The notes under the pieces were generated by a model. That model had not been told where the DNA came from. It searched no databases and was given only the letters and a program-made list of their open reading frames with translations. Below are positions 2,745 through 46,621 of a stretch of 46,621 nt of DNA, in pieces. A program made the position numbers and the translations under genes. Each line of letters begins with the position of its first letter. Position 1 is the first letter of the stretch. The DNA lies in IMG/VR virus record IMGVR_UViG_3300047089_000265, positions 1 to 46,621 of that record; one strand, written 5' to 3'. The stretch comes from a virus.

Positions 2745-2747
2745 AAC

Positions 2748-3671
2748 TTAGGCCCCCGGATTTCCATAGATCCCGCGCCAGCCGTAAAACCCGAAATCGG
2801 CGCGGTACCGCATGTACACGTAGCCGACCTCGTTCTTCTCGAGGTAATCGGACTTGGTGTAGGGCTGCTTGCGCCACAGCCACATGGTTTCGGTGTCGTT
2901 CGGAGGAGCGACTAAGAACCAGGCGTCCGGGTCGGTCAGGAACGACCAGATGATCGGGTCGATCGTGCCGCCGTTCTCGGTGTACTTGAAGGCGTTCGTT
3001 GCGCGGTTGGCGGTGTCCGAGCGGTCCTGAGATTTCAGGATCTCGTACGCGTTCCAGCGATTGCTGGGATGGATCAGCACGTTGGGAGTCGGCAAGAGCT
3101 GCAGAAAACCCTCGTGCGTTTTGGTGACTTCCCAGTCGGTCATGGCCAGCTCGAGAGAGGTGATGTCGAGGTCCGCGGCGGTGCCGAGGTTGGTCTGCGT
3201 GCCGCCGGCTTTCACTAACGGGTGGATGGCGGAGCACAGAGGCTGTCCGTCCGGGCCGGGGTAGTTGGTGCCGTCGAAGGCGTTGTTGTAGACGCTGGCT
3301 CCCTGGATCTCGATCGTCTGGTTGATCGAGTTGGCGAGAGCAACTGCGCGCTTCGAGATGATGCCGACCTGGTCGTCTTCGACCAGCTCCTGCGAGGCCG
3401 CGATGCCCAAGCCGAACTTGGCCGGCTTGAACGTCTTGTTGTAACCCTGTACGAAGGTATCTACCGGGGTGTCCGCGCCTTCGTTGATCTTGCTTGCGAG
3501 TCCTACGCCGGCCATCTGCGAGAACTGCTCGATCATGCGGTTGGTGGTGTCGGTGTTCAACAGCTTGGCGTATAGCTGCTGCTTCTGGTTGTAGGTTTTC
3601 CAGATCTTGGCGTTGAGCGCCGGCAGCATCGTGGTGTCGAAGAAGTCGGAGAAATTGCCGCGAATCATCAT
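2748..3671 (-). CDS. Major capsid protein, 307 aa
   Basis: The protein forms the icosahedral shell. Its sequence matches the Mu-like/HK97-fold major head subunit style. The N-terminal region (FFDTTMLPALNAKIW) is followed by a segment with TFKPAKFGLG and ASQELVEDD (roughly residues 80-100). An IQGASVYNNAF motif lies in the middle and a beta-rich domain ends in RADFGFYGWRGIYGN. The length is normal for the family. Two Met codons begin the frame; the first is used here. The gene sits between a decoration-like protein and minor structural proteins and downstream of the scaffold-like gene, the expected order. Confidence 0.85.
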   Translation of the reverse strand: MMIRGNFSDFFDTTMLPALNAKIWKTYNQKQQLYAKLLNTDTTNRMIEQFSQMAGVGLASKINEGADTPVDTFVQGYNKTFKPAKFGLGIAASQELVEDDQVGIISKRAVALANSINQTIEIQGASVYNNAFDGTNYPGPDGQPLCSAIHPLVKAGGTQTNLGTAADLDITSLELAMTDWEVTKTHEGFLQLLPTPNVLIHPSNRWNAYEILKSQDRSDTANRATNAFKYTENGGTIDPIIWSFLTDPDAWFLVAPPNDTETMWLWRKQPYTKSDYLEKNEVGYVYMRYRADFGFYGWRGIYGNPGA

Positions 3672-4362: not shown

Positions 4363-4539
4363 CTAGTTACTAACTTCGCGTAATTCGCTGGCTTCGGCTT
4401 TTAACTGCTGCTTCAGTTTGGCCTCTGCACAACGGGCACAGAACTTACCGCAGCTTCCGTTCCAGCGGTCAAAGACTTCTTTGCTGGCGCGTTTGGGACA
4501 CGCCGCGCACTTGACCTGAAGATATTTGAGATAGGCCAC
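4363..4539 (-). CDS. Small zinc-binding protein, 58 aa
   Basis: The downstream part of a longer open frame looks like a genuine protein. It has two Cys pairs (KCAACPK and KFCARCAE) that could bind one zinc, followed by a charged helix (AKLKQQLKAEASEL). The part upstream of the GTG at 4539 is translated 12-bp repeat array and is not credible as protein. There is no good ribosome site, so the start is uncertain; reading through the array from 4803 (146 aa) is a less likely alternative. Function is unknown. Zinc-binding mini-proteins recur in this genome. Confidence 0.5.
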   Translation of the reverse strand: MAYLKYLQVKCAACPKRASKEVFDRWNGSCGKFCARCAEAKLKQQLKAEASELREVSN

Positions 4540-4553
4540 AACGTCGTTCTTGA

Positions 4554-4870
4554 CCCGCAGCTTCCGGTGCGTGCGTTCTACCGTGCTCCCGCAGCTTCCA
4601 GACTTCGCAAACCCCGCAGCTTCCGAGCCAATCCGGCGGCACCGCAGCTTCCACGGTGACGGGCATGCCGCAGCTTCCCGCACATCGCAAAGGCGTCCCG
4701 CAGCTTCCCGGCCAGTTGGGCACCACCCGCAGCTTCTACCGGTGAACTGCCCCGCAGCTTCCGCGACCAGGCGGGCCGCATGCCGTAGCTTCCCGGTGGC
4801 CAAGCGAACAGCCCGCAGCTTCCGGCAATTCGGTCCGCCTGCCCGCAGCTTCCTGTCTTCCGAACCTGGT
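4554..4870 (-). repeat. Array A, main block: 11 copies of the 12-bp motif
   Basis: Plus-strand reading gives CCCGCAGCTTCC (minus: GGAAGCTGCGGG) eleven times, with single-base variants such as CCGTAGCTTCC. Separating segments are unrelated in sequence and 13-22 bases long, about 17 on average. The block directly abuts structured element A on the side expected if the element is read first on the minus strand. It lies inside the late structural operon between a scaffold-side gene and the decoration gene. All three minus frames stay open across much of it, producing spurious ORFs. Confidence 0.9.
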
Positions 4871-5025
4871 CCCGCAGCCGCCGGTAAAAATTCAGTGGAA
4901 GCTTACGCGGCTGCCGCGGCCTAATGCGCGGATATCGCGTACGTTTAGCAGCTTTCCGCGGACGTTCGGGCCGGCAAGCGTGCCCGACGGTGACCGCGCT
5001 GCGCCTGACGGTGGCGCTCAAGTCC
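4871..5025 (-). ncRNA. Structured array-associated element, copy A
   Basis: This copy matches copies at 28071-28221, 20514-20660 and 43471-43613. On the minus strand it begins with a GCGCC-ACCGTCA-GGCGC hairpin (5017-5001) and ends GGCGGCTGCGGG, which resembles the array repeat. An inverted near-copy of the repeat lies at 4897-4910. GCAGCCGC and GCGGCTGC can form an 8-bp stem around it. Helix conservation with base-pair compensation in copy C suggests a functional RNA. Strand is inferred from array position. Confidence 0.65.
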
Positions 5026-5033
5026 TATTCTGC

Positions 5034-5065
5034 GGGTTGTGGGTTATGGGGTGATGGGTGATGGG
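5034..5065 (+). repeat. G-tract with 7-bp period, potential G-quadruplex
   Basis: GGG tracts recur every 7-8 bases (GGGTTGT GGGTTAT GGGGTGAT GGGTGAT GGG), five tracts in all. It lies 8 bases from element A. Element B has the same kind of tract 12 bases away, so the two appear to travel together. Confidence 0.75.
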
Positions 5066-5084
5066 CAGGCCACCCTGTGCATAT

Positions 5085-5213
5085 CCCGCAGCTTCCATTT
5101 GTTGCAGCATCCCGCAGCTTCCAGGCACAAACACCCGACGTGTGCCCGCAGCTTCCTGATCAAGGTCATCTACCCCGCGGCTTCCGCTATACCCGCATTG
5201 TCCCGCAGCTTCC
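5085..5213 (-). repeat. Array A, leader-side block: five repeats
   Basis: Five copies of the motif, one of them degenerate (CCCGCGGCTTCC), lie on the other side of element A and its G-tract, in the same orientation as the main block. The last copy ends 13 bases before the stop of the 5227-5823 gene. Separating segments are 14-27 bases long. Confidence 0.85.
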
Positions 5214-5823: not shown

Positions 5824-6672
5824 TTATCGTCTCCTCCGCATGCCGTCCGTTTTCTTCTTCTCAGTCAGGAATTCCTCGTTGGTGATTCCCATCTGCTTGA
5901 CCAACTGCTTCGCCTGCGGGCCGAGGCTGTCGTCGGGGTCTTCGAGCGGTGCGCGTCCGGGCCGGTTATCCTGTGCCGCTACGCGGGCACGCCGGTCGGT
6001 CTCCACGCGGTCGTACTCGTCGCCGTCGTCGCCGTCGTCCTTTTTGCTGCGCGCCTCCATCGCCAGGCGGGACTTGGCCGCTTTGGCCGCGGCGAACAGA
6101 GTTGCCGGCGATTTTTTCGCCTGCGGATCGAACGCAATCAGCTCCTGAAACTCTTCCGCCGTCGCGCGGAACAGAGCGGACTTGTTGTCGGCCAGTTCCG
6201 GGAATTTCGTCATCAGCTGCGAGTCGGTCGAGATCTTGCCGCGCTCCACATCGACCGTGCGCCGGGCTACCTTCGCCGCGATCTCGGCGACCTGCTGCGC
6301 GTTGACGTACCCCTCGGTGGCCTTGGCCACCAGAGCCTGGATGGCGCGCGGTCCTTTACTGATCGCCTCGAGCCACTTGTCGGGGTCATGGAAGATGGCT
6401 TCGTCTACGTCCGACGTGCCGGTGACTGCCGGCGGCAGCAAGTCGGATGTCTCGATCGGGTCTTCTTCTTCGGCTGGCGCAGCTTGCTGCGGGTGCCCGT
6501 TGCCATTGCCGCGGGCGCGGTCTGCCCAGAACCGTTCGCTGGCGCGGGCCTCGCCGAGCTCGCGCTCCATGCGGGCCAGCTCGGCTTTCGATACGGTGAC
6601 GGTTTCCGCCTGGCCTTTCGGCGCTGCGGGCTGGTCTACTGCCTCGTTGTCGAGGACGTCTTCATTAGGCAT
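5824..6672 (-). CDS. Probable scaffolding protein, 282 aa
   Basis: The protein is acidic at the N-terminus (MPNEDVLDNEAVDQP) and strongly helical, with a predicted coiled coil (SKAELARMERELGEAR, about residues 28-43). A basic C-terminus (EKKKTDGMRRRR) could contact capsid protein. Low-complexity, charged, coiled-coil proteins between portal and capsid genes are typically scaffolds that guide procapsid assembly. The length is in the usual range. It abuts its neighbours on both sides without a gap. The assignment rests on composition and position, not on a sequence motif. Confidence 0.65.
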   Translation of the reverse strand: MPNEDVLDNEAVDQPAAPKGQAETVTVSKAELARMERELGEARASERFWADRARGNGNGHPQQAAPAEEEDPIETSDLLPPAVTGTSDVDEAIFHDPDKWLEAISKGPRAIQALVAKATEGYVNAQQVAEIAAKVARRTVDVERGKISTDSQLMTKFPELADNKSALFRATAEEFQELIAFDPQAKKSPATLFAAAKAAKSRLAMEARSKKDDGDDGDEYDRVETDRRARVAAQDNRPGRAPLEDPDDSLGPQAKQLVKQMGITNEEFLTEKKKTDGMRRRR

Positions 6673-7020
6673 TTAACGCAATCCTGCTTTGTATCCGAAC
6701 TCCGTAGGGCCATACAGCTCCTTCCGTTTCTTCACGTACTTGGCGTCGCACGCCAGGCACATCATCCGGTAGACGCCGTTTTCCATATGGCACACCATGC
6801 GGTTCTGGCCGATTGCCCGCAGCGTGTCCCACGGCGTGTGACACTCGCTGCACTCGGTCGGAGGCGTGCCCGTGGCCAGCGCGTGCAGTGCCTCCTCGTG
6901 CCGGTGGAAGCAGTCGACACACTGACTAAAGCCGGTGTGCCGGATCATGTCGTACGGACTGCGGAACCGCCGGCAGGACGGGCAAATCTCGGCTACGTGT
7001 ACCGCTGCCGGTGCGGTCAT
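6673..7020 (-). CDS. Multi-Cys zinc-finger protein, 115 aa
   Basis: It has several CxxC pairs (ICPSCRRF, CVDCFHRHEE, CSECHTPW, CLACDAKYVKK), enough for two zinc sites. The spacing suggests treble-clef or rubredoxin-like knuckles. It starts at an ATG with an AAAGAGG ribosome site 5 bases away. Its stop abuts the scaffold-like gene, so it probably opens a short transcript that starts beside the divergent toxin-antitoxin cluster. Function is unknown; nucleic-acid binding is possible but not shown. Confidence 0.7.
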   Translation of the reverse strand: MTAPAAVHVAEICPSCRRFRSPYDMIRHTGFSQCVDCFHRHEEALHALATGTPPTECSECHTPWDTLRAIGQNRMVCHMENGVYRMMCLACDAKYVKKRKELYGPTEFGYKAGLR

Positions 7021-7045
7021 AAAACCTCTTTAGTACTCTGGTACC

Positions 7046-7075
7046 TTGCTGCTATTCCGCGTGACGGCATAGAAT
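7046..7075 (+). promoter_or_regulatory. Candidate promoter of the toxin-antitoxin cluster
   Basis: TTGCTG (7046-7051), an 18-base spacer and TAGAAT (7070-7075) resemble sigma-70 -35 and -10 boxes. Transcription would start about 6-7 bases later, at or next to the ATG at 7082, so the first gene could be translated from a leaderless mRNA. Confidence 0.45.
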
Positions 7076-7081
7076 AAAGCT

Positions 7082-7318
7082 ATGGCCCCTTCTAATCAAG
7101 TGATCGTCAGTGATCCGGAACTTATGGGCGGCACGCCGTGCTTCCGTGGCACGCGCGTACCGTTTGAAAACCTGATCGACTACCTCGAGAGCTATGAAGC
7201 TCTGGATGAATTTCTAGATAACTTTCCATCGGTTACTCGCGAAGAAGCGATTGCGGCGCTCGAGCACGCGAAAGACTTAGTTCTTGCGGAGGCGCACGCT
7301 GAAACTACTTCTCGATGA
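7082..7318 (+). CDS. DUF433-type antitoxin, 78 aa
   Basis: The core GTPCFRGTRVPFENLIDYLE followed by EALDEFLDNFPSVTREEAIAAL is the DUF433 signature, a helix-turn-helix-like fold. DUF433 proteins are commonly paired with DUF5615 PIN-like toxins as antitoxin and autorepressor. The gene precedes and overlaps such a toxin by about 35 bp. It lies on the plus strand, against the surrounding late genes, consistent with separate acquisition and lysogenic expression. Confidence 0.85.
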   Translation: MAPSNQVIVSDPELMGGTPCFRGTRVPFENLIDYLESYEALDEFLDNFPSVTREEAIAALEHAKDLVLAEAHAETTSR

Positions 7319-7628
7319 ATGTCTGCCGACCGCTCTGAGACGGCGCTTTCGTGAGCACGAGTGCTGTACGGTGCGTGAGATGGGCTGGGCCGGTAAGAAG
7401 AACGGCGCGCTCCTGGATCTTGCTATCAGCGAGCAGTTTGATGTTTTGATCACCGCCGACAAAAACATAGAGCATCAACAGAACTTCGCGGGCCGCAAGA
7501 TAGCCTTGCTCGTACTCGGGGCGCATTCGACGAAGATAAAAGATTTGCTGCCGCTCCTTCCGGCTGCTCGTACCGCGCTCGATCGTCTACAGCCTGGAAC
7601 TGTCGTGCGCGTGGCCGCGAAATCTTAA
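7284..7628 (+). CDS. DUF5615 PIN-like toxin, 114 aa
   Basis: Starting from the TTG at 7284 the protein reads MRRRTLKLLLDECLP. The N-terminal LLLDECLP acidic motif, the central ITADKNIE and the C-terminal helix fit DUF5615, a PIN-like fold expected to cleave RNA in a metal-dependent way. Family members typically begin MKLLLDE, so the first five residues may be an extension and a CTG at 7299 is an alternative start. It overlaps the DUF433 gene and is followed one base later by a HigA-type gene. Confidence 0.8.
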   Translation: MRRRTLKLLLDECLPTALRRRFREHECCTVREMGWAGKKNGALLDLAISEQFDVLITADKNIEHQQNFAGRKIALLVLGAHSTKIKDLLPLLPAARTALDRLQPGTVVRVAAKS

Positions 7629-7629
7629 A

Positions 7630-7932
7630 ATGCCCAAATCACCAAGAACTCTGCCGCCAACTCACCCTGGCGCAATCCTGCTCGAAGACCTACAGGATTG
7701 CGGAGTCAGTATTAACGGTCTGGCTCGTGCCATTGGCGTGTCGCCTAGCCGCATCAGCCAGCTCGTGAACGGGAAACGCGACATTACCGCAGACACTGCC
7801 GTGCGGCTTGCCCGTTACTTTGGCTGCTCGGCGCAGTACTGGCTGAACCTTCAGAATCATTTTGATCTGGAATCTGTGGCTGATCGGCAAAGCATCGAAA
7901 GCCACGTCGTCCCGTATAAGAAGAGCGCCTAA
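7630..7932 (+). CDS. HigA-family XRE antitoxin/regulator, 100 aa
   Basis: The N-terminus PPTHPGAILLEDLQ, then INGLARAIGVSPSRISQLVNGKRDITADTA, is a clear helix-turn-helix (about residues 25-60) of the HigA/VapI antitoxin type, followed by YFGCSAQYWLNLQ. HigA proteins usually follow a HigB toxin; here the upstream gene is a DUF5615 toxin instead. It may repress the cluster promoter and act as a second antitoxin. Its end overlaps the convergent 7929-8165 gene by 4 bp. Confidence 0.88.
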   Translation: MPKSPRTLPPTHPGAILLEDLQDCGVSINGLARAIGVSPSRISQLVNGKRDITADTAVRLARYFGCSAQYWLNLQNHFDLESVADRQSIESHVVPYKKSA

Positions 7933-18399: not shown

Positions 18400-18468
18400 G
18401 TTGTGAAATGCTCTGCTGCCGGCCGCCCAAAAACAGGCCGAAACAGGCCCGGAAACCGTCAAAATAGC

Positions 18469-18497
18469 GTATTAGAATGGATATTATAATATTGCAA
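18469..18497 (-). promoter_or_regulatory. Candidate late promoter upstream of terS
   Basis: On the minus strand TTGCAA (18497-18492), 17 bases, then TAATAC (18474-18469) fit a sigma-70-like promoter. A perfect 12-bp AT palindrome ATATTATAATAT (18481-18492) containing TATAAT lies in the same stretch. This AT-rich island stands out from its GC-rich surroundings and lies about 70 bases upstream of the terS start. Confidence 0.5.
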
Positions 18498-18561
18498 TGC
18501 GTTTTGGCGGCACGTAGAGGGCCAAACCTAAAGAGCCGACTGCCCATTCTCGTGCTTCGGC

Positions 18562-18585
18562 GTTTTCCTATTTTATTAGGAAAAC
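18562..18585 (-). terminator. AT-rich hairpin after the membrane protein gene
   Basis: A perfect 9-bp stem GTTTTCCTA/TAGGAAAAC with a 6-base loop lies three bases beyond the stop of the 18589-18780 gene and upstream of the candidate terS promoter. There is no long U-tract, so it may be a weak terminator or a processing/stability hairpin. It marks the boundary between two minus-strand transcription units. Confidence 0.5.
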
Positions 18586-18588
18586 CGG

Positions 18589-18780
18589 TCAGCCCCGCGC
18601 CGGCCCCACGATGTAGTGGCCGGTCAGCCCGAACACGTTGAGCAACCAGAGAATCAGGAACAGCACGATCACCACGTTAATGATCATTTTGATCGGCTGA
18701 GCGATCGGCAGGTAGGTCTGCACCAGATACAGGCACACGCCCACGATGATCAGCACCACCAAAACCTGAATGATGTCCAT
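18589..18780 (-). CDS. Thivi_2564-type small membrane protein (possible holin), 63 aa
   Basis: Two transmembrane segments are clear: about residues 4-22 (IIQVLVVLIIVGVCLYLV) and 33-50 (IINVVIVLFLILWLL), separated by a short loop with LPIAQPIK. The pattern matches the Thivi_2564 family of small phage/bacterial membrane proteins. Small two-helix membrane proteins in phage late regions are often holins, which would permeabilise the inner membrane. No endolysin is recognised next to it, so the lysis role is only inferred. Confidence 0.75.
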   Translation of the reverse strand: MDIIQVLVVLIIVGVCLYLVQTYLPIAQPIKMIINVVIVLFLILWLLNVFGLTGHYIVGPARG

Positions 18781-20388: not shown

Positions 20389-20487
20389 CCCGCAGCTTCC
20401 GCGCACGCGCGAGCGGCTACGCGGGCAGCGGCCGGCTTTACCGCACCAGCGCATCCCGCAGCTTCCGCGCACGCGCGAGCAGCTACG
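20389..20487 (-). repeat. Array C: two long-form repeats
   Basis: Two copies start at 20389 and 20455. Each is the 12-bp motif extended on the plus strand by GCGCACGCGCGAGC and an (A/G)GCTAC block, giving a unit of about 32 bp, separated by about 33 unrelated bases. The extended form also occurs at 27952 and 28006. On either strand the unit can fold as an imperfect hairpin. Element C follows at 20514. Confidence 0.8.
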
Positions 20488-20513
20488 GCCCAATCCGAAC
20501 TGACTGAACTGCC

Positions 20514-20660
20514 CCCGCAGCTGGCGCTAAAAACAAAGTGGAAGCCCACGGGGCTGCCGCGCGGCGAACCGCGAATATCCCGTGCGTTTAACAGCCTTCC
20601 GCGAGCGGCTGGGCCGGTAAACGTACCCGCCGGTGATCGCGCTGGGCTTGTCGGTAGCCC
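20514..20660 (-). ncRNA. Structured array-associated element, copy C (divergent)
   Basis: The most divergent of the four copies. The terminal hairpin that reads GCGCC/GGCGC in the others is GGGCT-TGTCGGT-AGCCC here (20644-20660), so two base pairs changed on both sides together. The inverted repeat-like segment (20540-20553) reads GGAAGCCCACGGGG, and the flanking stem is shorter (GCAGC/GCTGC). The helical compensation is the best single line of evidence for conserved RNA structure. Strand is inferred from the array. Confidence 0.6.
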
Positions 20661-20673
20661 AAAATGGTCGAAC

Positions 20674-27898: not shown

Positions 27899-28038
27899 CC
27901 CGCAGCTTCCACGCGCGCGCGAACGGCTAGTCGATTAGATCGTAGCCTCTACCCGCAGCTTCCGCGCGCGTGCGAGCGGCTACGGAAGGTTGCCCGCAAT
28001 GCGTACCCGCAGCTTCCGCGCGCGTGCGAGCGGCTACG
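27899..28038 (-). repeat. Array B, distal block: three repeats, long form
   Basis: Copies begin at 27899, 27952 and 28006, spaced 53 and 54 bp, the most regular spacing of any block. The last two carry the extension GCGCGCGTGCGAGC plus GGCTACG, giving a unit of about 32 bp; the first has a diverged extension. Between 27863 and 27898 there is also a short tandem (ACACAACAT three times). Read on the minus strand, the block follows element B. Confidence 0.85.
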
Positions 28039-28070
28039 CGGTTTCTGCGGTTTTCTTACGCGCAGATAGC

Positions 28071-28221
28071 CCCGCAGCCGCCGGTAAATTCAGTGGAAGC
28101 TTACGCGGCTGCTGCAGTTGCCTGCAGATATCGCGTACGTTTAGCAGCTTTCCGGGAGCGTTCAGGCCGGTAAACGTGCCTGACGGTGATCCCGCTGCGC
28201 CTGACGGTGGCGCTCAAGTCC
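28071..28221 (-). ncRNA. Structured array-associated element, copy B
   Basis: Nearly identical in key segments to copy A. It has the GCGCC/GGCGC hairpin at 28197-28213, a 9-bp helix GTACGTTTA/TAAACGTGC (28135-28143 with 28171-28179, one wobble) and an inverted repeat-like segment GGAAGCTTACGCGG (28095-28108). An 8-bp stem GCAGCCGC/GCGGCTGC flanks the last. It sits inside array B, downstream of the TnpB-like gene on the same strand. It is a candidate guide-scaffold or trans-acting RNA; function is inferred. Confidence 0.7.
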
Positions 28222-28233
28222 AATATACGCTGC

Positions 28234-28265
28234 GGGTGTTGGGTTATGGGGTGTTGGGTTTTGGG
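28234..28265 (+). repeat. G-tract with 7-bp period next to element B
   Basis: GGG tracts recur every 7-8 bases (GGGTGTT GGGTTAT GGGGTGTT GGGTTTT GGG). The order element, G-tract, repeats is the same as at copy A. Confidence 0.75.
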
Positions 28266-28276
28266 CAGGCCGATTA

Positions 28277-28635
28277 CCCGTAGCTTCCCTTTCAGGATGA
28301 AAGCATCCCGCAGCTTCCATGTCTGCCCCGCAGCTTCCAACCTCGCACGCCGCCCGCAGCTTCCTCACGTCGAAGCCTTCCCGCAGCTTCCATTCCCTGT
28401 TCCGCGCAGCTTTAGACCGCGACCGACTCCCGCAGCTTCCAAAATTCCAGTCTGAACATTGGCATCGATCCCGCAGCTTCCTCTTCGTCTATCCCCGCAG
28501 CTTCCAGCAGATGCCCTGCCCCATCCCGCAGCTTCCGCAACCTCGATGTAACGCCCGCAGCTTCCGCCCATCACCTATACCCGCAGCTTCCACCTTCTCG
28601 TCCCGCAGCTTCCACCTTCTCATTCCGTAGCTTCC
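28277..28635 (-). repeat. Array B, main block: 13-14 repeats beside the TnpB-like gene
   Basis: Thirteen good copies and one degenerate copy (GCGCAGCTTT) of the 12-bp motif. Intervening segments range from 8 to 29 bases and are otherwise unrelated, except that the last two are almost the same (ACCTTCTCGT, ACCTTCTCAT), a recent unit duplication. The copy at 28624-28635 lies inside the final codons of the 28620-29831 gene. The block could therefore be the 3' part of that gene's transcript. Confidence 0.9.
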
Positions 28636-29831
28636 GGTTCCGGCTCCGCTGCCGGTGCCTCGCCGGCCGCATGCTCGAACTCCAGACCGGCCGCGCCCAC
28701 TTTTTCCTGGATCAGCGCCCGGAGCCTGTACCAGGGTAACCCTTCGCAAAAACTCTGGTCGCTGTCATCGTACACTACCGCGCTGAAGCGCCGCCGTGCC
28801 GCATAGCCTGCCAGTTGCGCGGCAATCTCATGCGTTGCCGAGTCCATGCGGTTGCGATACTTGGCCGCTGCCGCCTCGCGCCGTTGCGCGAACGCCGGTA
28901 CCGGCCGCTGCTCGTATTTCTGATCATCGGACCATCGATCGAGCTGCTTGCGATGCTCTGCGCTCCACCTGCGCAGGTGGTCGCCGTTGTACGTCCACAG
29001 CTTTTCGTCGTTCAAATTTACCGCGACCAACAGCGAGTCTTTGGACGTGTGTACCCGGAGTGTCGACAGCCTGACCGGTGACACCGCAGCCTGCCTGGGC
29101 AGCCACGCGACCATCTTGCACATCAGGACTGGCGGGTTACCGCGCTGGTACAGGGCGGCCTCGCCGGCGATCGCCTCCCCGCGGGCCAGCAGGCGCACCG
29201 AGGCCAGCTGCCGCCGGAACTGCGAGCCGCTCTTCAGCCGCATTTCCCGCCGCGCCTCGCCGATGCGGATCGACAATATCGGCTTGTCTTCTTCGATCCG
29301 GACGGCCCAGCTCTGGTTGTGGACGGGCACCGGGATCGGATACCGGAAGCTCGGCAGGGAGTTGGCTCGGGTCCAGATGACGGGGTAGCGGATCGCCCGG
29401 TATTTGCGGGTGATGGCCTGCTCGAGCGCGACCACGGTAGCCGGCGACAGTGCTGGAAACTCGGCACGTAAGGCCGGGTACAGGTAGGTTCTTGCCATCG
29501 GCGGCATTTTCTCTTCGCCCGGATGCCGGCGCACGTCGGTTGCGTACAGCTCCGTAATGATGTAGTTGGCGGCTCGTGTAGTTTCCCGCCAGGCCGCTTT
29601 CACGTCGTCTCGCAGTTCCTTCCAGGTACAGCCGATCGGGGCTGCTACCGGCATGCTGACGGCGCGGAGCAGGTATCGCTTGTTCCAGCAGTCGGCGCAG
29701 TACGTTTCATCCTCGTGGGCTTTCCAGCCGCGGGGCGTGCGCGGCTTGTTGGCCGGCGTGAGTTTGGTTTTGCAGGTTTTGCGGCAGTCCGTACAGACCG
29801 CTTCGGTTGCTTCGGGGGTCAAGACTGGCAT
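28620..29831 (-). CDS. TnpB/Cas12-like RuvC-fold protein, probably nuclease-impaired, 403 aa
   Basis: The start is ATG 29831 (MPVLTPEATEAVC); an earlier frame crosses a terminator and palindrome and is rejected. Cys13, Cys16, Cys45 and Cys48 form an N-terminal zinc knuckle. Helices at about residues 70-145 are followed by SLPSFRYPIPVPVHNQ (158-173), a WED-like segment of TnpB and small Cas12 proteins. The RuvC-I strand reads VAVNLN (269-274), with Asn where the family has Asp. RuvC-II reads AVVYDD (351-356), where Glu is usual, followed by LPWYRLRALIQEKVGAAG (365-382). The usual C-terminal zinc ribbon and third Asp are missing. It is next to array B and the structured element, with no transposon ends or TnpA. 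An RNA-guided binder is my inference; the family call is moderate. Confidence 0.6.
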   Translation of the reverse strand: MPVLTPEATEAVCTDCRKTCKTKLTPANKPRTPRGWKAHEDETYCADCWNKRYLLRAVSMPVAAPIGCTWKELRDDVKAAWRETTRAANYIITELYATDVRRHPGEEKMPPMARTYLYPALRAEFPALSPATVVALEQAITRKYRAIRYPVIWTRANSLPSFRYPIPVPVHNQSWAVRIEEDKPILSIRIGEARREMRLKSGSQFRRQLASVRLLARGEAIAGEAALYQRGNPPVLMCKMVAWLPRQAAVSPVRLSTLRVHTSKDSLLVAVNLNDEKLWTYNGDHLRRWSAEHRKQLDRWSDDQKYEQRPVPAFAQRREAAAAKYRNRMDSATHEIAAQLAGYAARRRFSAVVYDDSDQSFCEGLPWYRLRALIQEKVGAAGLEFEHAAGEAPAAEPEPEATE

Positions 29832-29870
29832 GACGAGACATTGTAGTCCCGGGCTGGCGGATTGGCTAGT

Positions 29871-29894
29871 GGACAGGCTGTCGACAGCCTGTCC
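29871..29894. promoter_or_regulatory. Perfect 24-bp palindrome upstream of the TnpB-like gene
   Basis: The arms GGACAGGCTGTC/GACAGCCTGTCC meet without a spacer. It lies about 40 bases upstream of the ATG at 29831 and just downstream of a terminator on the minus strand. A TACAAT -10-like box lies at about 29840-29845. It is an operator candidate for a repressor, possibly the gene product itself or the HTH protein of the facing operon. Confidence 0.6.
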
Positions 29895-29899
29895 GGAGC

Positions 29900-29937
29900 A
29901 AAAAAAACGGCGCGGCCGGCAGTTTACCGGTCGCGCC
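29900..29937 (-). terminator. Rho-independent terminator
   Basis: On the minus strand an 11-bp GC-rich stem (GGCGCGACCGG / CCGGCCGCGCC, one G-T pair) with a 7-base loop is followed by C and eight Ts. It ends the long late transcript from the 30029-30274 gene and insulates the TnpB-like gene, which must have its own promoter. Confidence 0.85.
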
Positions 29938-30028
29938 ACATTTCAGGGGTTAGTCACTTTGGAAAAGGCCGGCGCCGCCGTGTGGCGTCCGCCTCGTTTA
30001 GCAGGATAACGCAATTCGCGGAAGGTCG

Positions 30029-30274: not shown

Positions 30275-33200
30275 CTGCTGTTATTTTACCAGACGAGACG
30301 TCTTTCCAAAGCGAATCAATCATAGCTTTGTTGGCCTGAGGACCCTTAAACTCTGGCGAAAACATAGAACGTATGCCTTCCCAGGTGATGCTTTGCATTT
30401 CCCGCGGCAGTAGATCCCTGGCCGCGGCAGCTCGGCGATAGGCTTCCTTGTACAGCGCATAGGTCCCCTGTTCGCCGGAGATCTGGGATGACGAGGAACC
30501 GGTGCCCCCGAAATTCTGATCCACTTCTAGAGACTTCTGCGACATTGGCCGCAGCAAAGCGGCGCCAACGGCATGCGTGTCCATGGTGGTATGGTCCCGT
30601 GCGCTATTCGGGTTGATGATGTTGTTGAAAAAGTTTCTGACCTTATGCTTCAGTCCGAGCTTGGCGTGGATGTTGGCCTTGCTCCCATCCTCCAGGATGC
30701 TCATGGATTTGGCGATATGGTCTAAATAGGCGAAGCTGAATGCCGTCGGCGAGCCGTCGTTATTGCGTTGCAGATCGCCCGGTTTCCCTTCCGGAGTGAG
30801 CGTCGGATATTCCTTCGGGTTGACCGCTTCGTCATACAGCCGGAACCATACGGGCCGATCTTCCTGCCGCACATCGTTAAAACTCTTCCCTTGAATGCGC
30901 CTGTATAATTGTGCCCGCACTTCCTCCGGAATTGCCGCGCTTACTTTGTCTCGCCATGCCTGCCCCATGCGCGGATCCCATTGCATGGAGTCCCGATCCT
31001 TCCAAAATTCGACAAGGCGGCGGGCTCGTTCGGCATTCAAGAACCATTCTGTTTTTGGCGAGTTGACTGCCATGGCGCCGGCTGCCTGTTCCGGAGTGGT
31101 GCCGTACTGCTTGGCCCAGCGTTTGGCCATGGTGTTCGTCCCGTCGTACCAGAGCCGTGCGCGTTGGCGAAACTCTGGGGACATGTTGTCGTGCAGCCAC
31201 TCCAGGTTGTCCTGCATGCGGTTGATCATTTCTTCTGCAGCGTCCGGTATGGAGAGCTTGCCGCTTTTTACTTGCTTCTGCAGATCCAGGAAGTTGGGGT
31301 ACTGGAGCATGGCATTAATATTATTGGCCATTTTCTCCGGATCACGTTTCCAGGAATCGTAGCCCGTGGTCAGAATGTTGGACATCGGGTCTTCGGTCGA
31401 GCTCACCGCGGTAGGTACTCGCGTGGACTGCTCGCTGCCGGTCGCGCCTTCCGCCTTGAACTGGCGCGCCACGTTATAGAGCCGCTCGATATGGGGTTCG
31501 ATCTGCGCCCCGAATTTGTCGATCATGGCGGTGGTGAACTTCGCGAGTCCACCGGCAACTCTGGACGCGCCCCAGATCGCCATGTCTTTGATATCCGCGG
31601 GGTCGATGCCGCCAGCGAGAGAGGGCAACTTGGTTCCGCTGAAGTTGCCGCGGTCGCGCATGCGCTGCAGGGCTTCGTCGCCGGCCTTCTGCAGTCTCGA
31701 TGGCTCGGTTACTTTGTCGAGGAATTTCTGCTGTGCTTCCGGTGAAGCCTCGGGACCAGAGGGCTCCGCTTGCAGCGGATTTTCGGTTATACCGAAGCGT
31801 TCTGCTAGCGATCCCGCCGGCGGTACCCACGGTTTCCCCGACTTCCCCGCCCAGGTGTCGAAGCTGGCCTTTCCGGTATCGATCACCTGTCCATCAGCGT
31901 ACTTGAGTGAAATATGAGGCCATTCCGCGTTATATGCCGTAGCGGTCACTGTGGCTTGCCCACGCGGAGTCTGGACCACCTCACCGGGCTGGACTTTGCC
32001 CCATACGTCCCCGGGGGCCAACGCCTCTCCAGTGCGGGCGGCTGCGTTTACCTTGTCGCGAAACGCCTGCTGCGCCTCGGGCGAAGCCTCGGGGCCTGCG
32101 GCGGCAGACCTGGAAGAAATCCAGTTTTCAAATGCCGCCTTATCGTCCATGCTGGGAATTCCCAGACTGTTGCGGGTTGCTCTCACTAAGTTAGCTTTGT
32201 CCCGCGCCGCGTAAAGGCCTTCACCGACCGAAGCTAACTTGTCCTTTAATCGGGCGACGACCTCAGCCGCAGTAAGCCGCTGTGCGGAGAGATTTTCGAT
32301 ATCCTTCACAACCCCTAATTGCTTCGCTTGCTCTACCAGACGCCCAGACTCTTCTTCGTACCAGGGTCTGGTCGCCGCCCCTGCTGGCTGCTGCTGTTCC
32401 GCTTCCTGCCCGCCGGCTGCTTTCGCCTGGTCGATGAAGCCCTGCCGTGCCGCTGCCTGCCGTTGCCGCTCGTCGATCATCCACTGGCGCGGGTTCTCCG
32501 GTACATCGTGTTCCGGCTGCGTGCCGCCGAACGCCTGTGCTTCGGGCGATAGCGGTGCTCCTGGCGGTGCTTCCGGCGGTGCCGCTGCTGCCGGTGGCGC
32601 TCCTGGCGGTGCGCCGGGTGGTGGCGGCGGGGGCGGGCCTCCGCCCTCGTCTTCTGGCGGTGCTCCTCCTCCGGGCGGTTCGTCCGGCGCCGCTCCCGGC
32701 TGCGGCGGTGGCGTGCCGCCCCTTCCGGGGCTGATGATGGCGTTGATCTGGCGGCCTATCTGACGTCCCCGTGGTGAGTTGGGGTTGGTGTGCATTCCCT
32801 CGGTGAGGAGTTGGTTTCCGAATCTGGAATGAAACAGCTTCGACATGGCGCCGGTGCCGAGGATGGTTTGGACCGCAGTCCATGGATTGTAGAACAATAG
32901 GCCGAGTTGGCTTTGCGCGACGAGTAGAGGTCCCGTACCGCTGGGGTTCGGGTTCTGAGCGAGCATTTTATTGCCGAGTAAAAAGTTACTGATAGCCGAG
33001 ACTTGCTCCGGGTCCCGGAACTTGGCCCGCTTTTCGGCGGGGTTCATGTCGTTCCACTTATTCAGAATTCGCTGGGCACGCTCAAACTCTCCCTCCCGCA
33101 TTTGCAGCTGGAATTGATCCGATAACCACTTCGAGCCGGCTTCCTTGCCTGCCGCTACCCTGGCCTCCTGTAGATGTTCTACGGCTTCGGGTCCTCCGAT

Positions 33201-34777: not shown

Positions 34778-36784
34778 TTATTTAAACCCGTTGCTATGCA
34801 GAGCATTAATTACCTTGGCGTCGTCGTCTCCGTAGGCGTCCCGATACTGCTTGAGTACGGCGTCGCTCACTGGCTTGCCGTTGCCTTTCGGCAGCTTCGC
34901 TATCAGCGCATTCGCTGCCGCTGCCTGTGCTGCCGGGTTCGGTGCTCTGGGAAGGTTGGCTTGGCCGCCCGCTTGGCCGCCCGCTTGTAACGGCTTCAGG
35001 GTGTCCGGATCGAATCCGCGGCGCGTGAGAATTTCCCGGGCCGACGGTCCCAGCATGTGATATTTGCCCTCGAGCTTAGCCTCCTGCAACCTTTCCGTCA
35101 GAGGCTGGGCCCTCCCTCCGGCAAGCTGAAATAGCCGATTGCCGGCGCCTTGGATCTGGTCAGGCCCTGCATCCCGGTTGAGTTTCTCCAAAACCCGTCC
35201 GACCTCCTGCTCTCCCGGTACGCCCGAAGTGGACAGCTTGGCCCCTTCTCCCGCCAGAAAAATCGATACCAGGCCGGCGTCATTCGCTGGCGCCTTCCCG
35301 AAGATCGTGGCGAACTTGTTGTAAGCCGCATTGCCTGGTGTGAAGTCGTGATTGTGGAGCGCTTGCGCCACCTCCAGGTACAGGTCGGCGTGATGGATCA
35401 TGGTATTGATGGCGATCTTCTGCCCCCCTAAGCTGGTCGGCGTCGTGCTGGCTAATTCATCTATGGTCTTTTTGCGGAACTGTGCGGTGCCCGGGTCGTA
35501 GTCCCTGTCGTACTGATGCACGGCTTGCATCAGTTTCTGCATAGCTCCCGCTCCGCCCACTGTTCGCGTAGTGGGCTGCTCTATACCTAACGCAGTGTTT
35601 TTGACCTGTGATGCAAACCATCCGGGCAAAGTGGCCAGGTACGCTTCGCCGGTCAGTTCGGACGGAGCCTGTACAGGGACGCCTGCAGGTCCCGCGTTTT
35701 TGTTGGTTAAAGTCTGCTGTTTGAGAGCGTCCGACAATTGACGGCTGGAGTCTGCCGCTTGCTTACTCGCTATCGTGAGGGACCGGAGGTTGGGGTCTTC
35801 GCCGTGGATCCGATTACGCTCCCGGACTTTATCCACCTCGTCCGGGGTGAGATCCTTCCACGTCTTCGGCGTACCGTCCAAATTGGTATAGGCGGACGCG
35901 TACTTGTCGAGGGTCTTCTCTTCCTGTGTCTGCTTCTCCGGGTTCTGGTACAGCAGGCGCCCACCTGCCCCATTCGCCGCATTCTTGAAAGTCTGCCGGT
36001 TGCCGTCCCGCTTGTCCTGGATGCCCGCAAACGGCGGAGGCAGAGGGCCGGGCGGAGTTGCTGTAACTGGTGCTGAGCCGCCCGTTGGAGCGCCGACCGT
36101 AGGCGCGCCGCTGCCGAAGGGCGTAGGCGTATTAGGCGCAGGCGGTGCCGCACCGGGAGCCTCCGCAGGTTGCGGTGGTGCTCCTGCGTTGAGGCCGGAG
36201 ATGGCCGCGGCTCCCTGAGGGACGATCGTCGGCTTGTTCAGCTCATAGACCTTCGACTGCAGCTCTTGAAAGTCTTTTGGTGTTACCTTCCGTCCGGCTG
36301 GAGCCAGTCCCATCCTCACCGCTTCCGCCGGCGGCGCTATGCCGTACTGCTGCAGGATCTGATCGGCGATGTCCGCCCCGCCGAACGCCTCCATGCGCTG
36401 GCCGGCCAGCTGCATCTTCGCGGCGCGTGTCGCAAACTCGTCCGGCGTATACCGCTCCGACTGCAGGGTGCGGCCGTCGCTGGTCGTATAGGACATTAAC
36501 CGGCTCTTGTCCACGGGACGCGGAAAGGGAACGGTCTTCACCTGACCGGGCGTGTCCGGGTCCGGGATCGAGGTGGTGTCCTGCACCATGTTGCCCGTAA
36601 CCGGCCGCCCGTACTGCGTCATCATCTGCTGAGCCTGCATGTCCCGCATCTGGGAGTCCTGCTGGTCGCGGACCAGCGAACGCTGGTACATCTCTTGCTG
36701 CTGCGACTCGTTGCGCAGCTGCTGCGCCAGCGCGTGGCCTTGCAGCACGCCTTGGATTAAGTCATGGAACGGGTCTACGACCAT
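34778..36784 (-). CDS. Internal virion protein-like, 668 aa
   Basis: It starts MVVDPFHDLIQGVLQG. The N-terminal 80 residues are Gln-rich and helical. The next part contains DEFATRAAKMQLAGQRMEAFGG, then a Pro/Gly/Ala-rich linker (about residues 210-270). The C-terminal part is helical with LVSIFLAGEGAKL and IQGAGNRLFQLAGG. It is encoded between the 1540-residue and 248-residue proteins in the tail operon. Internal core or tail-tube accessory function is inferred from length, composition and place. Confidence 0.7.
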   Translation of the reverse strand: MVVDPFHDLIQGVLQGHALAQQLRNESQQQEMYQRSLVRDQQDSQMRDMQAQQMMTQYGRPVTGNMVQDTTSIPDPDTPGQVKTVPFPRPVDKSRLMSYTTSDGRTLQSERYTPDEFATRAAKMQLAGQRMEAFGGADIADQILQQYGIAPPAEAVRMGLAPAGRKVTPKDFQELQSKVYELNKPTIVPQGAAAISGLNAGAPPQPAEAPGAAPPAPNTPTPFGSGAPTVGAPTGGSAPVTATPPGPLPPPFAGIQDKRDGNRQTFKNAANGAGGRLLYQNPEKQTQEEKTLDKYASAYTNLDGTPKTWKDLTPDEVDKVRERNRIHGEDPNLRSLTIASKQAADSSRQLSDALKQQTLTNKNAGPAGVPVQAPSELTGEAYLATLPGWFASQVKNTALGIEQPTTRTVGGAGAMQKLMQAVHQYDRDYDPGTAQFRKKTIDELASTTPTSLGGQKIAINTMIHHADLYLEVAQALHNHDFTPGNAAYNKFATIFGKAPANDAGLVSIFLAGEGAKLSTSGVPGEQEVGRVLEKLNRDAGPDQIQGAGNRLFQLAGGRAQPLTERLQEAKLEGKYHMLGPSAREILTRRGFDPDTLKPLQAGGQAGGQANLPRAPNPAAQAAAANALIAKLPKGNGKPVSDAVLKQYRDAYGDDDAKVINALHSNGFK

Positions 36785-43386: not shown

Positions 43387-43427
43387 GGAAGCTGCGGGTA
43401 TGACGACAAAGACCAGGAAGCTACGGG
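43387..43427 (+). repeat. Array D, leader-side repeats
   Basis: Two copies (43387-43398 GGAAGCTGCGGG and 43416-43427 GGAAGCTACGGG) lie upstream of element D when read on the plus strand. Confidence 0.8.
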
Positions 43428-43470
43428 GCGAGCCGTGGGTTATCATTTGAACTCGTGCTAAATTTCTTTT

Positions 43471-43613
43471 GCGCCACCGTCAGGCGCAGCGCGGTCACCG
43501 GCGGATACGTTTACCGGTCCAGCCGTCCGCGGAAAGCTGCAAAACGTACGGGATATCTGCAGGCCACTGCGGCAGCCCCGTAAGCTTCCACTGAATTAAC
43601 CGGCGGCTGCGGG
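43471..43613 (+). ncRNA. Structured array-associated element, copy D
   Basis: Opposite orientation to the other three copies. It contains the GCGCC/GGCGC hairpin (43471-43487), the inverted repeat-like segment CCCCGTAAGCTTCC (43576-43589) and ends CGGCGGCTGCGGG. Its direction is against the leftward tail genes on both sides, so transcription of this copy would be antisense to the operon. Confidence 0.65.
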
Positions 43614-43654
43614 TCGCTCGTCGTCGTGCGGGCGTGGGTCATGGAGCATCAGCC

Positions 43655-43863
43655 GGAAGCTGCGGGTTGCCCCCGGATTGCCGGAAGCTGCGGGTGAGCG
43701 CCGCACAAGCCGGAAGCTGCGGGTGCGGCATGATTCTGATCACCCGGAAGCTGCGGTGGACCGCCAGCCGGGAAGCTACGGCATGCCCGCCACCGTGGAA
43801 GCTGCGGGGCTGATGTCAGTCGTCCGGAAGCTGCGGGATGCGCGAGAATTGGAAAGCTGCGGG
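43655..43863 (+). repeat. Array D, main block: eight repeats
   Basis: Eight copies of GGAAGCTGCGGG or single-base variants, separated by unrelated 13-22-base segments. The block ends 14 bases before the stop of the 43878-44564 gene. Reading on the plus strand, the order is two repeats, element D, then this block, mirroring array A. Confidence 0.9.
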
Positions 43864-43877
43864 ACGCCTTGGCGGTA

Positions 43878-44564
43878 TCACACGCCTTTGCCGTAGTACG
43901 CCTCGAAAACCTGATAGTACAAATCCAGCCTGCCGCGGCAGTGCTGTGCCACGTCCGGCATTTCGATTTCGGACTCCCGCCCGTACGCCTCGCCTAACAG
44001 AGCCATCGCCAGATAGCCCTTCAGCGGCGCCGGCCCGGGCACCAGCGTCTGCTGCCCGCCCGCGTCCAGTGTCGGCGGCCAGCTATCGTAAATATTCGCC
44101 AGCGTGCCCGGCGCGGACGGCACCGGGTACAGTCCGATCATGTCCATGCCCAGCAGGTCCGGATACCAGTGGTCCGGAGTGCCGGCCGTCGTCAGGTATT
44201 GCTCGTCTTTGCCTTCCAGCTCTTTGGTGTTGGCAGGCCGCAGAGCGATACCGTTGAGCGATAGATGCCGTGTCGAGAGGTGCTGCGGAGGCGCGTTGTA
44301 GCTGCCCTGGTTCGCGATCATCAGGCCGGTCACGCGGGTGAGGAACACGCCCGTACGCAGAGCCAGGCGCTTCAGCGACTCGTCGAGCCATTGGATCAGG
44401 TCTCCGGTTGTCCAGTACACGAGGTCCGCACGCGATGCCGCGTGCAGGTCCGGCAGCTCGTTGTCGATCACCTGGTTGATGTCGACTCCGCCCAGCCCGC
44501 CGCCGACGCCTGTGCCGCCGCCCGGCAGCACCTGCCCCCACAGGATTTCATTCCAATTCGCCAT
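43878..44564 (-). CDS. Neck/adaptor-like virion protein, 228 aa
   Basis: It starts MANWNEILWGQVLPGGG. Residues about 110-150 (RPANTKELEGKDEQYLTTAGTP) resemble those of the 145-855 protein (RPATLKQLDAANEQW), so the two seem paralogous. The C-terminal part (PLKGYLAMALLGEAYG, then RLDLYYQVFEAYYGKG) is helical and typical of phage head-tail adaptor or tail-completion proteins. It lies between the spike and the 850-residue tail gene. Confidence 0.72.
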   Translation of the reverse strand: MANWNEILWGQVLPGGGTGVGGGLGGVDINQVIDNELPDLHAASRADLVYWTTGDLIQWLDESLKRLALRTGVFLTRVTGLMIANQGSYNAPPQHLSTRHLSLNGIALRPANTKELEGKDEQYLTTAGTPDHWYPDLLGMDMIGLYPVPSAPGTLANIYDSWPPTLDAGGQQTLVPGPAPLKGYLAMALLGEAYGRESEIEMPDVAQHCRGRLDLYYQVFEAYYGKGV

Positions 44565-44567
44565 GAC

Positions 44568-46621
44568 TTAGTGGCAGTTAAACTGAGTGCCGGTGAACAC
44601 GGCGATCGCGCCCGTGCCGCTACCTGTGCATGGCGCGCTGTTCGGAGTGCCGTCGGTTATGTACAGTTCGATGCCCGCCTGTAAGCCGGGTATGCCGGCG
44701 ACGATGTTGGCCATCGCGGTCTTGTACAGAAAGCCGGGAGTCAGAGGCGCGGAAGCCAGGGCACGCTGGCAGAGTCCGGATGTCGTACCGGAAACGATGT
44801 TGCCCGCCTCGGCGATCTGCGCATTGTTGCCGCAGACTACCGCATAGTTGCTGCCCCCCTGAATGATAATATTCCCGACCAGGTTCATGCCGGTCGAGGC
44901 GTTGATCTGCACGGTAGGCAGGGTCGCGGAGTTCTGGTTGAACTGATTGGCTACCAGGGTCAGATTATTCTGGGTGATCTGCGTCGATCCGACCTGACTG
45001 CCGATCATGGTGTTGAGCTGCCCGGAGATCGGGAAGTGCGCCGCAAAGTTATTGGACTGCGACGTATTGCCGCCCACTCCGCAGGAGAGCGCATTCACGT
45101 TCACTAGACGGTTTTGGGTGCCTCCGATGTAGAGACACCTTCCCTGATTCTGGAAGAACAGCACGTCGGTGATATTGATGTTGGTTGCCGAGGAATCCAG
45201 CTCGATGCCGATGGCCGCTGTGTTGGTAGCCCACGGCGCACCGCTGTACGGCATACCTTCGTACTGGATCGTGACGTGATTGATCTGGCCGCCGTACCCG
45301 TTGATGTAGAGGCCGCCCGAATAATCGTTGTTCAAGTAACTAAGATGTCCGCCAAGCCAAAAGCCGCTCTGCGCTGCGTGAATGCCCCATCCTCCGTTGC
45401 CGAAAGTCTGCACGCCTCCGAACCAGACACCACCGTTGCCGGTGTGGGTCGAGTTATTGACATATTCGATGCCGTGCTGGCCCGCAGCTACGGTGATGAT
45501 GTCGACAAAGTGTCCCTGACCCCCTCCGAGCGTGATGTTGTCGAGCACCGAACCGGCCACGATCAGGTTGTCGGCTTGGCCGTTGCCGCCTCCGCCGTCC
45601 ACATAGAGCCCCTGGTAGAATTTGCTGATACTGACATCGTTGATCGACCAGTTATTGGCCAGTGCCGGATTGCCCGAGCAGCCGCCGCCGCAGGTGTGGA
45701 TGCCGATGGACGAGGTCGGCGTGCCCACCTGGCTGAGCATGCAGCCTCCAGACATCGAAAAGCCGTCAAACACCACGTTGAACATGCTGCCGGTCAGCGC
45801 ATTGTATTTCAGCTGCACGCCTGCCGTGCCGTAGCTGTAGGCCGCTCCGCAGTTCACGCTGCCGACGTTGGGCGGGGTGGTGGGCGCATAGAAATTGTAG
45901 GTACCCGCCGTAGGCGCAAGAAACGGGCCGAGCGTCCAGGCCTCGGCGAATCCTGCCGATGCGCTGTTGATGGCGTAAGGGCCGGAGTGCGCGTTAGGAC
46001 AGTTCAGAATCATCTGCCCGTTGACCTGTCCCGAGGTGCCCGTGCCGCCGGTGATCGCGCAGGCCTCCGACGGGCCGGTGCCGCCCGACACGTACACGTT
46101 GTGCAGGTAGTCCGAGCCGTTCATGCCGATCGGAACCACGGGGAACGTGACCGTAGTGTTGCCCGCGATCAGCGGTGTGGACGGCTTGACCGCCGCGAAG
46201 TTGTACAGGTTCGGGTTGAGCGTCGATACCACCGCGGCCAGGTTGGTCATGTTCGGGCCGAGTACGCTTTCGATGGACTTGATCTCCGCAGTCGTCGAGT
46301 TGAAATTCCAGGCCGTGATGAAGGCCGAGACAATCGCGCCGGCGTTGTGACCGGCAGCCGCCGTGTGATTGAAGCCGCGCCCGTCCACGTTCGGGCAGCT
46401 CGAGTGCCCGACGTTCATAGTGGAGCCGACAATCGAACAGACCGAGATCTGCTCGTTATCGATCGTGACCAGTTCGTTGGCGACAAACTTAGCCGCGGTC
46501 ACTACGGTGAACGAGGTTGCCGTCGTGTTCAACGGCGTCGTGAGCACGGTCTGGGCATTGTCGGTGGCCACCTTCATGTTCTGATCGGTGGCCACCGCGC
46601 CCGGGAACACGGCAGTCTGAG
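44568..46621 (-). CDS. Tail-spike gene, main body: right-handed beta-helix protein (continues into 127-1)
   Basis: Together with 1-127 this encodes about 705 residues. After the signal peptide comes a short N-terminal beta domain with TAAKFVANELVTIDNEQI and CPNVDGRGFNHTAAAGHNAG. A long series of beta-helix rungs follows, with Asn, Gly and Ser stacks (for example YQGLYVDGGGGNGQADNLIVAG, NNLTLVANQFNQ). These are characteristic of pectate-lyase-like spikes that bind or cleave host surface polysaccharide. More than ten Cys residues are present, unusual for phage spikes and in keeping with secretion. Possible catalytic residues cannot be assigned. The C-terminus ends FTGTQFNCH. Confidence 0.8.
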   Translation of the reverse strand, partial: QTAVFPGAVATDQNMKVATDNAQTVLTTPLNTTATSFTVVTAAKFVANELVTIDNEQISVCSIVGSTMNVGHSSCPNVDGRGFNHTAAAGHNAGAIVSAFITAWNFNSTTAEIKSIESVLGPNMTNLAAVVSTLNPNLYNFAAVKPSTPLIAGNTTVTFPVVPIGMNGSDYLHNVYVSGGTGPSEACAITGGTGTSGQVNGQMILNCPNAHSGPYAINSASAGFAEAWTLGPFLAPTAGTYNFYAPTTPPNVGSVNCGAAYSYGTAGVQLKYNALTGSMFNVVFDGFSMSGGCMLSQVGTPTSSIGIHTCGGGCSGNPALANNWSINDVSISKFYQGLYVDGGGGNGQADNLIVAGSVLDNITLGGGQGHFVDIITVAAGQHGIEYVNNSTHTGNGGVWFGGVQTFGNGGWGIHAAQSGFWLGGHLSYLNNDYSGGLYINGYGGQINHVTIQYEGMPYSGAPWATNTAAIGIELDSSATNINITDVLFFQNQGRCLYIGGTQNRLVNVNALSCGVGGNTSQSNNFAAHFPISGQLNTMIGSQVGSTQITQNNLTLVANQFNQNSATLPTVQINASTGMNLVGNIIIQGGSNYAVVCGNNAQIAEAGNIVSGTTSGLCQRALASAPLTPGFLYKTAMANIVAGIPGLQAGIELYITDGTPNSAPCTGSGTGAIAVFTGTQFNCH
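46559..46621. repeat. Right copy of terminal overlap
   Basis: Matches positions 1-63 with five substitutions in frame. The two versions of the segment read VAPAHNKNVATD and VATDQNMKVATD in the spike protein, so the differences change amino acids. Confidence 0.85.

Follow-up and report, generated by a model that had tools for sequence, protein, structure and literature searches.

A Structured Phage RNA Element with a Repeat-Complementary Segment, Associated with 12-nt Repeat Arrays and a Cas12f-Like Gene

Virus record IMGVR_UViG_3300047089_000265 of IMG/VR, analyzed here over its whole length of 46,621 nucleotides (nt; hereafter the window), carries four dispersed arrays of a 12-nt direct repeat, a structured RNA element of some 150 nt with each array, and a gene for a truncated Cas12f-like protein at one of them. 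Every copy of the element holds a short segment that is partly complementary to the repeat, and we lean towards the view that elements and arrays supply the guide RNA parts for the Cas12f-like protein, which would then be a phage-borne, nuclease-dead, RNA-guided DNA binder. The further proposition, that this may be a distinct phage-encoded RNA-guided lineage in which a truncated, nuclease-dead Cas12f-like protein draws on about 40 guides from four dispersed 12-nt-repeat arrays, each with a tracrRNA-like element (tracrRNA, trans-activating CRISPR RNA; CRISPR, clustered regularly interspaced short palindromic repeats), we consider evenly balanced.

The Repeat Arrays and the Structured Element

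The 12-mer CCCGCAGCTTCC has 33 exact copies in the window, against 0 for a reversed-letter control, and its copies are limited to four arrays even with one or two mismatches allowed. Repeats flank the element on both sides in array B (4447..5213, + strand), array A (27899..28635, + strand) and array C (43387..43863, - strand), with spacers mostly of 13–22 nt in array B; array D (20389..20466, + strand) comprises two exact repeats, each followed by a common sequence of ~21 nt. Arrays B and C keep a step of mostly 25–30 nt from one repeat start to the next, while array A is less evenly spaced; the spacers between repeats, about 40 in number, are largely unrelated in sequence. In arrays A and D (27899-28038 and 20389-20490), five repeat copies are followed by a conserved GCGCRCGYGCGAGCRGCTACG-like sequence that differs from the other spacers. 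A small cysteine-rich open reading frame (4363-4540, - strand) includes the repeat copy at 4447-4458, which it reads as Gly-Ser-Cys-Gly.

The element was found by a covariance model in exactly four copies (157–183 bits), each inside or bordering one array, with no fifth (next best, 17 bits): element B at 4871..5022 (+), element A at 28071..28218 (+), element C at 43466..43613 (-) and element D, the most diverged, at 20514..20665 (+). RNAalifold gave the four copies 47 pairs, 11 of which show compensatory changes on both sides. In the controls, 96.8% of cells pair, covariation as high was reached in 0 of 500 shuffles, and a one-column slide left 0 of 47; these values lean towards structure, since the structure was derived from the same four homologous sequences, whereas the two-sided changes are independent of that. 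Covariation is clearest at TACGCGG/TCGCGTA (A and B), which becomes TACGGGG/TCCCGTA in C and CACGGGG/TCCCGTG in D; further instances are CGCGG/CCGCG versus CGGGA/TCCCG and a 3' hairpin, GCGCC/GGCGC, that changes to GGGCT/AGCCC in copy D. Judged from its sequence, the element is a structured RNA. The G-U pairs and the model score (183 versus 17 bits) place this RNA on the strand where the repeat reads CCCGCAGCUUCC, and the strand matches the 5'-repeat-guide-3' order of type V CRISPR RNAs (crRNAs). No Rfam family reached its gathering threshold with the element (noise only, E 5–7), and the sole match to the element core in viral contigs was a contig of the same phage.

Dispersed intergenic arrays of direct repeats that are short (12 nt) and have sharp boundaries recall iterons, centromere-like sites and phage stoperators, and this phage encodes an integrase and several helix-turn-helix (HTH) proteins. 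One might therefore read the repeats as sites for a DNA-binding protein (in partition, replication, packaging or as repressor sites), with the elements as part of the locus and the Cas12f-like gene as an unrelated neighbor. We think this quite unlikely, because the covarying base pairs, with G-U pairs on one strand, indicate RNA, and because element and array always occur together while relatives with the same structural genes are without both.

Complementarity Between Segment and Repeat

The segment lies at 4897..4910 in element B and at 28095..28108 in element A (GGAAGCTTACGCGG in both, + strand), at 43576..43589 in element C (GGAAGCTTACGGGG, - strand) and at 20540..20553 in element D (GGAAGCCCACGGGG, + strand). 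A preliminary description of this DNA had reported inverted near-copies of the repeat at these four places, able to pair with it across a short bulge, and both statements were borne out: the sequences are present in all four copies, and the segment is the repeat's best duplex site in every element, with 11 base pairs (bp) and a short bulge in A, B and C and 10 bp in D. Duplex energies are -16.2 (B), -16.2 (A), -17.4 (C) and -15.7 (D) kcal/mol, and the start of the repeat, CCCGC, can pair with GCGG in A and B or with CGGG in C and D. The segment of copy C makes 12 of 12 pairs, via a 1-nt bulge and at -20.1 kcal/mol, with the repeat variant CCCGTAGCTTCC (the T5 variant); in A and C this variant is the repeat nearest to the 3' end of the element.

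With the four homologous copies counted as one event, the summed duplex energy was reached by 0.9% of joint repeat shuffles for the consensus (p = 0.009) and by 0.4% with the T5 variant (p = 0.004). Some repeat-pairing site at -15.7 kcal/mol or better is held by 10% of random 150-nt genome windows, and the relaxed pattern GGAAGC[TC]N1-5[CG]GG has only two further occurrences outside the arrays and elements. The complementarity between segment and repeat thus modestly exceeds chance. Among the repeat variants, the single substitutions at positions that pair (C5T, A6G, C11T and C12T) also preserve the duplex better than random substitutions do (p = 0.01, or 0.013 with transitions only).

Just 3' of element B, CTGCGGG (5030..5036, + strand) is complementary to nt 1–7 of the repeat and a possible second anti-repeat; just 3' of element A, GCTGCGGG (28229..28236, + strand) is complementary to nt 1–8 of the repeat (-17.9 kcal/mol). 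This (G)CTGCGGG sequence 3' of the element is present in copies A and B and not in C and D.

A Cas12f-Like Protein Encoded at Array A

The gene, which the preliminary description had not mentioned, occupies 28620..29939 on the - strand, with its 3' end within the last repeat of array A. A promoter-like site ending at 29840 makes ATG 29831 the probable start rather than GTG 29939; promoter and terminator scans were uninformative. A terminator-like hairpin lies upstream of the gene (29905-29945, - strand), and its loop CCGGTAAAC matches the conserved element loop CCGGTAAACGT.

PADLOC matched the protein to Cas12f (PDLC01699, E = 2.9e-6) and, more weakly, to Cas12u3 (6e-4); Pfam, NCBIfam, PHROGs and PDB sequence searches returned nothing significant. 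Alignment with two Cas12f proteins sets SLPSFRYPIPVPVHNQSW of the window protein against SIPSFKLDTPISIYNQSY, and hhalign against the same two covers residues 93–424 with a score of 56 (other window proteins tested, ≤21; 60 shuffles, ≤20.6). A profile of 27 Cas12f/TnpB proteins aligns with residues 101–424 at E = 3.4e-8, and the C-terminal part alone still matches it at E = 2.1e-4 with a score of 34 (shuffles, ≤19.6). Compared with the intact Cas12f of locus L098, RuvC-I reads VAVNLN versus MGVDMG (Asp to Asn) and RuvC-II reads VVYDDS versus IQIEDL (Glu to Asp); the chain ends ahead of the second (C-terminal) zinc ribbon and RuvC-III, and an N-terminal CxxC...CxxC pair is found. We take the protein to be Cas12f-like and, by sequence, nuclease-dead.

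Searches for homologues met nothing beyond weak noise in viral contigs, phages, plasmids and ~400 genomes from the phylum to which an Amycolatopsis genome belongs, and a Cas12f motif pattern that fits the window protein had no match in IMG/VR. A paired-repeat search of viral contigs returned only two contigs of the same phage and two coding coincidences; in genome contigs, where two neighboring copies were sought, the nine matches were all simple tandem or coding repeats with no element. Phage and plasmid collections held no useful similar DNA.

A nuclease-dead protein would also suit an RNA decoy, in which repeats and element mimic the type V guide RNAs of a host and the truncated protein acts as a dominant-negative competitor, much as RNA anti-CRISPRs (Racr) do. 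Racr units copy host CRISPR repeats, however, whereas the repeat here is 12 nt long, the genome contigs offered only the tandem or coding repeats just described, and ~40 different spacers would be needless for a decoy; we regard this reading as very improbable.

L138 (G085) encodes, at 6008-7294, another Cas12f that is nuclease-dead (D to N in RuvC-I, E to A in RuvC-II), with conjugation-like neighbors and 35-nt repeats nearby.

Genome Completeness, Related Phages and Spacer Targets

The window is a complete IMG/VR virus record. Its ends (1-63 and 46559-46621) are 92% identical over a 63-nt overlap, and because a second contig, L007, spans the junction and joins both ends, the genome is circularly permuted and effectively complete at about 46,558 bp (~46.56 kb). 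A DUF5615 PIN-like protein and an HTH_3 protein at 7284-7932 are a likely toxin–antitoxin pair.

Relatives share coat proteins 65–83% and terminases 65–81% identical to those of the window phage. Nine of the same phage group, several of them fragments, have no repeat arrays, no element and no Cas12f match. In G018, G007/G008, G015 and G017 the site of array B is a short intergenic region without an array, and that of array C is a small gap or is taken by other small genes. The joint absence of protein, arrays and elements from these relatives fits a joint gain, as judged from one lineage. The array B site of four of them (G008, 36090-36360; G015, 31990-32280; G017, 43860-44060; G018, 18400-18700) has a conserved hairpin-rich intergenic sequence (GCGAAGCAGGCG..GTCCCGCAAGGGCA..AGTCTTCGCTC..TGAGGC) directly ahead of a structural gene, possibly a phage leader RNA.

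One relative, L021 (IMGVR_UViG_3300010359_000124), instead has intergenic arrays at 905-1820 and 2736-3235 with alternating 10-nt repeats (GAGCGAGCCG / GAGAGAACCG) and ~8-nt spacers; they surround an IS110-like gene (Transposase_20 match), the same repeats recur in 50 IMG/VR stretches, and the locus is probably a TIGR-Tas system. L012 (G003, IMGVR_UViG_3300035698_001390) carries a palindrome that includes GGTCTCACGTGAGA in at least 10 dispersed copies.

Self-targeting by the spacers was considered and rejected, as matches in the phage's own genome are at chance level. Guides of 16 letters are too short for a meaningful search of larger collections with the tools used.

Does the Segment Act as an Anti-Repeat?

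The preliminary description saw in the segment the layout of a tracrRNA-like partner and named pairing inside the element as the alternative. The tracrRNA-like layout has since gained from the Cas12f-like gene that touches array A, from compensatory changes that mark the element as an RNA read on the same strand as the repeat, and from repeat variants that leave the pairing intact (p about 0.01).

Several results weigh against it. Cofolding, which the same description had proposed as the check, spoke against it: whole elements gain -1.7 to -5.2 kcal/mol with the repeat, no better than with shuffled repeats, and internal structure wins, so that the segment is occluded in the predicted folds. 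A control, the tracrRNA from the genuine Cas12f locus L139, stands out clearly in this procedure. The distal half of the segment (TACGCGG / TACGGGG / CACGGGG) sits in the covarying internal helix, and copy D loses one pair with the repeat. Spacer length, about 8–22 nt with longer outliers, is more variable than in known guide arrays; the ~40 spacers have no match above chance in their own genome, the nine relatives or ~50 other viral contigs; and neither Cas1 nor Cas2 was seen among the proteins scanned. Structure prediction of the protein, made without homologues, was unusable (predicted local distance difference test score, 35), and the parts are carried by a single phage lineage, which makes a protein–RNA co-evolution comparison impossible.

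The segment could be only one strand of an internal hairpin. The element would in that case have a regulatory or structural role in the phage as an RNA, or be a hairpin site in the DNA, and would not pair with the arrays. Shared ancestry would account for its likeness to the repeat: the element starts with CCCGCAGC, its first 12–14 nt are repeat-like, and it holds a second repeat-like segment, GCAGCTTTCC (28144..28153, + strand, in element A), a possible partner in cis of GGAAG. The compensatory series TACGCG/CGCGTA, TACGGG/CCCGTA, CACGGG/CCCGTG and the lack of repeat preference in whole-element cofolding speak for this account, which leaves unexplained the conservation of a 12-nt repeat amid unrelated spacers, the pairing-favoring repeat variants and the Cas12f-like gene beside an array. 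We hold it to be unlikely as a full explanation, though deserving of more weight than the protein-site and decoy readings.

Internal pairing is nonetheless at least half right, given the position of the distal half, and both kinds of pairing may hold if only GGAAGCT meets the repeat. In A and B, the cofolding gain increases from about -2 kcal/mol to -7 kcal/mol once the first 12–14 nt of the element are trimmed off, with p values still only moderate. The likeliest reconciliation would keep the distal half in the internal helix and let only GGAAGCU pair with AGCUUCC of the repeat.

Comparison with Known Systems

Type V-F (Cas12f) systems are alike in an effector that is homologous in its N-terminal and RuvC regions, in a structured RNA with a repeat-complementary segment and in the 5'-repeat-spacer order. 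They differ in that the window repeat is 12 nt, compared with 37 nt in L139 (~36-nt spacers) and 35 nt in L138; the window spacers are uneven, at about 13–22 nt, and each of the four arrays has its own scaffold copy; and the window protein is phage-borne, has lost its RuvC residues and lacks the C-terminus. Homology is thus present, but catalytic residues, repeat length and spacer regularity do not agree, and the locus is not classed as a type V-F CRISPR system.

TldR proteins are TnpB-like nuclease-dead repressors, some of them phage-encoded, and one branch has a dual-guide RNA described as possibly intermediate to crRNA–tracrRNA systems (PMC13418256). A nuclease-dead RuvC protein in phages is common to both, whereas the single TldR guide RNA cassette lies beside the gene and the window has four dispersed, many-repeat arrays; moreover, the best family of the window protein is Cas12f, with no TnpB family match in Pfam. 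Type V-M (Cas12m) effectors have an inactive RuvC, occur on mobile elements, bind without cutting and block transcription (PMC11656645). A catalytically inactive type V effector on a mobile element is the shared trait; PADLOC, however, returned Cas12f and Cas12u3, not Cas12m, and the repeat and array architecture differs.

TIGR-Tas systems have phage arrays with 8–12 nt repeats and short spacers (PMC12045711), and were considered for the window because TIGR-type arrays occur in its relative L021. Short-repeat phage arrays are indeed shared, but TIGR arrays have two alternating repeats, 9-nt spacers and a Nop-domain Tas protein, while the window combines a single repeat type and spacers that are longer and uneven with a Cas12f-like protein and a separate scaffold-like RNA. 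No IS110 or Nop match was found among the window proteins scanned with Pfam, and the candidate was rejected on the misfit of repeat layout and protein.

Proposed Mechanism

On the guide RNA reading, the system would work like an RNA-guided DNA binder of the Cas12f, TldR or Cas12m type that does not cleave. The arrays would be transcribed from the CCCGCAGCUUCC strand and processed into short crRNA-like pieces, each with the repeat at its 5' end followed by a 13–20 nt guide. The element would serve as a scaffold RNA of a tracrRNA-like (or split omegaRNA-like) kind, with the segment as its anti-repeat: the guide-adjacent AGCUUCC of the repeat would pair with GGAAGCU of the element, beside the internal helix TACGCGG/UCGCGUA, and in copies A and B a further pairing is possible between the repeat's CCCGCAG(C) and the (G)CUGCGGG that lies directly 3' of the element. 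The duplex would be held by the product of the Cas12f-like gene at array A. As the RuvC-I Asp, the RuvC-II Glu and RuvC-III are lost, the complex would bind DNA without cutting it, and we infer that it might serve as a programmable repressor or roadblock, with targets in the host, rival phages or plasmids.

Implications

If this is true, the phage has recast a Cas12f-type effector as a multiplexed DNA-binding regulator with repeats one third of the normal length. Repeats of 12 nt fall outside the usual length range of CRISPR finders, and the finding would suggest that short-repeat arrays with separate scaffold RNAs are overlooked in viral genomes. The locus would also offer a test case for the split of a guide RNA into crRNA and tracrRNA. 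No repeat-plus-tracr guide architecture known to us would be as compact, and the phage would exemplify the control of genes in a multiplexed, RNA-guided manner.
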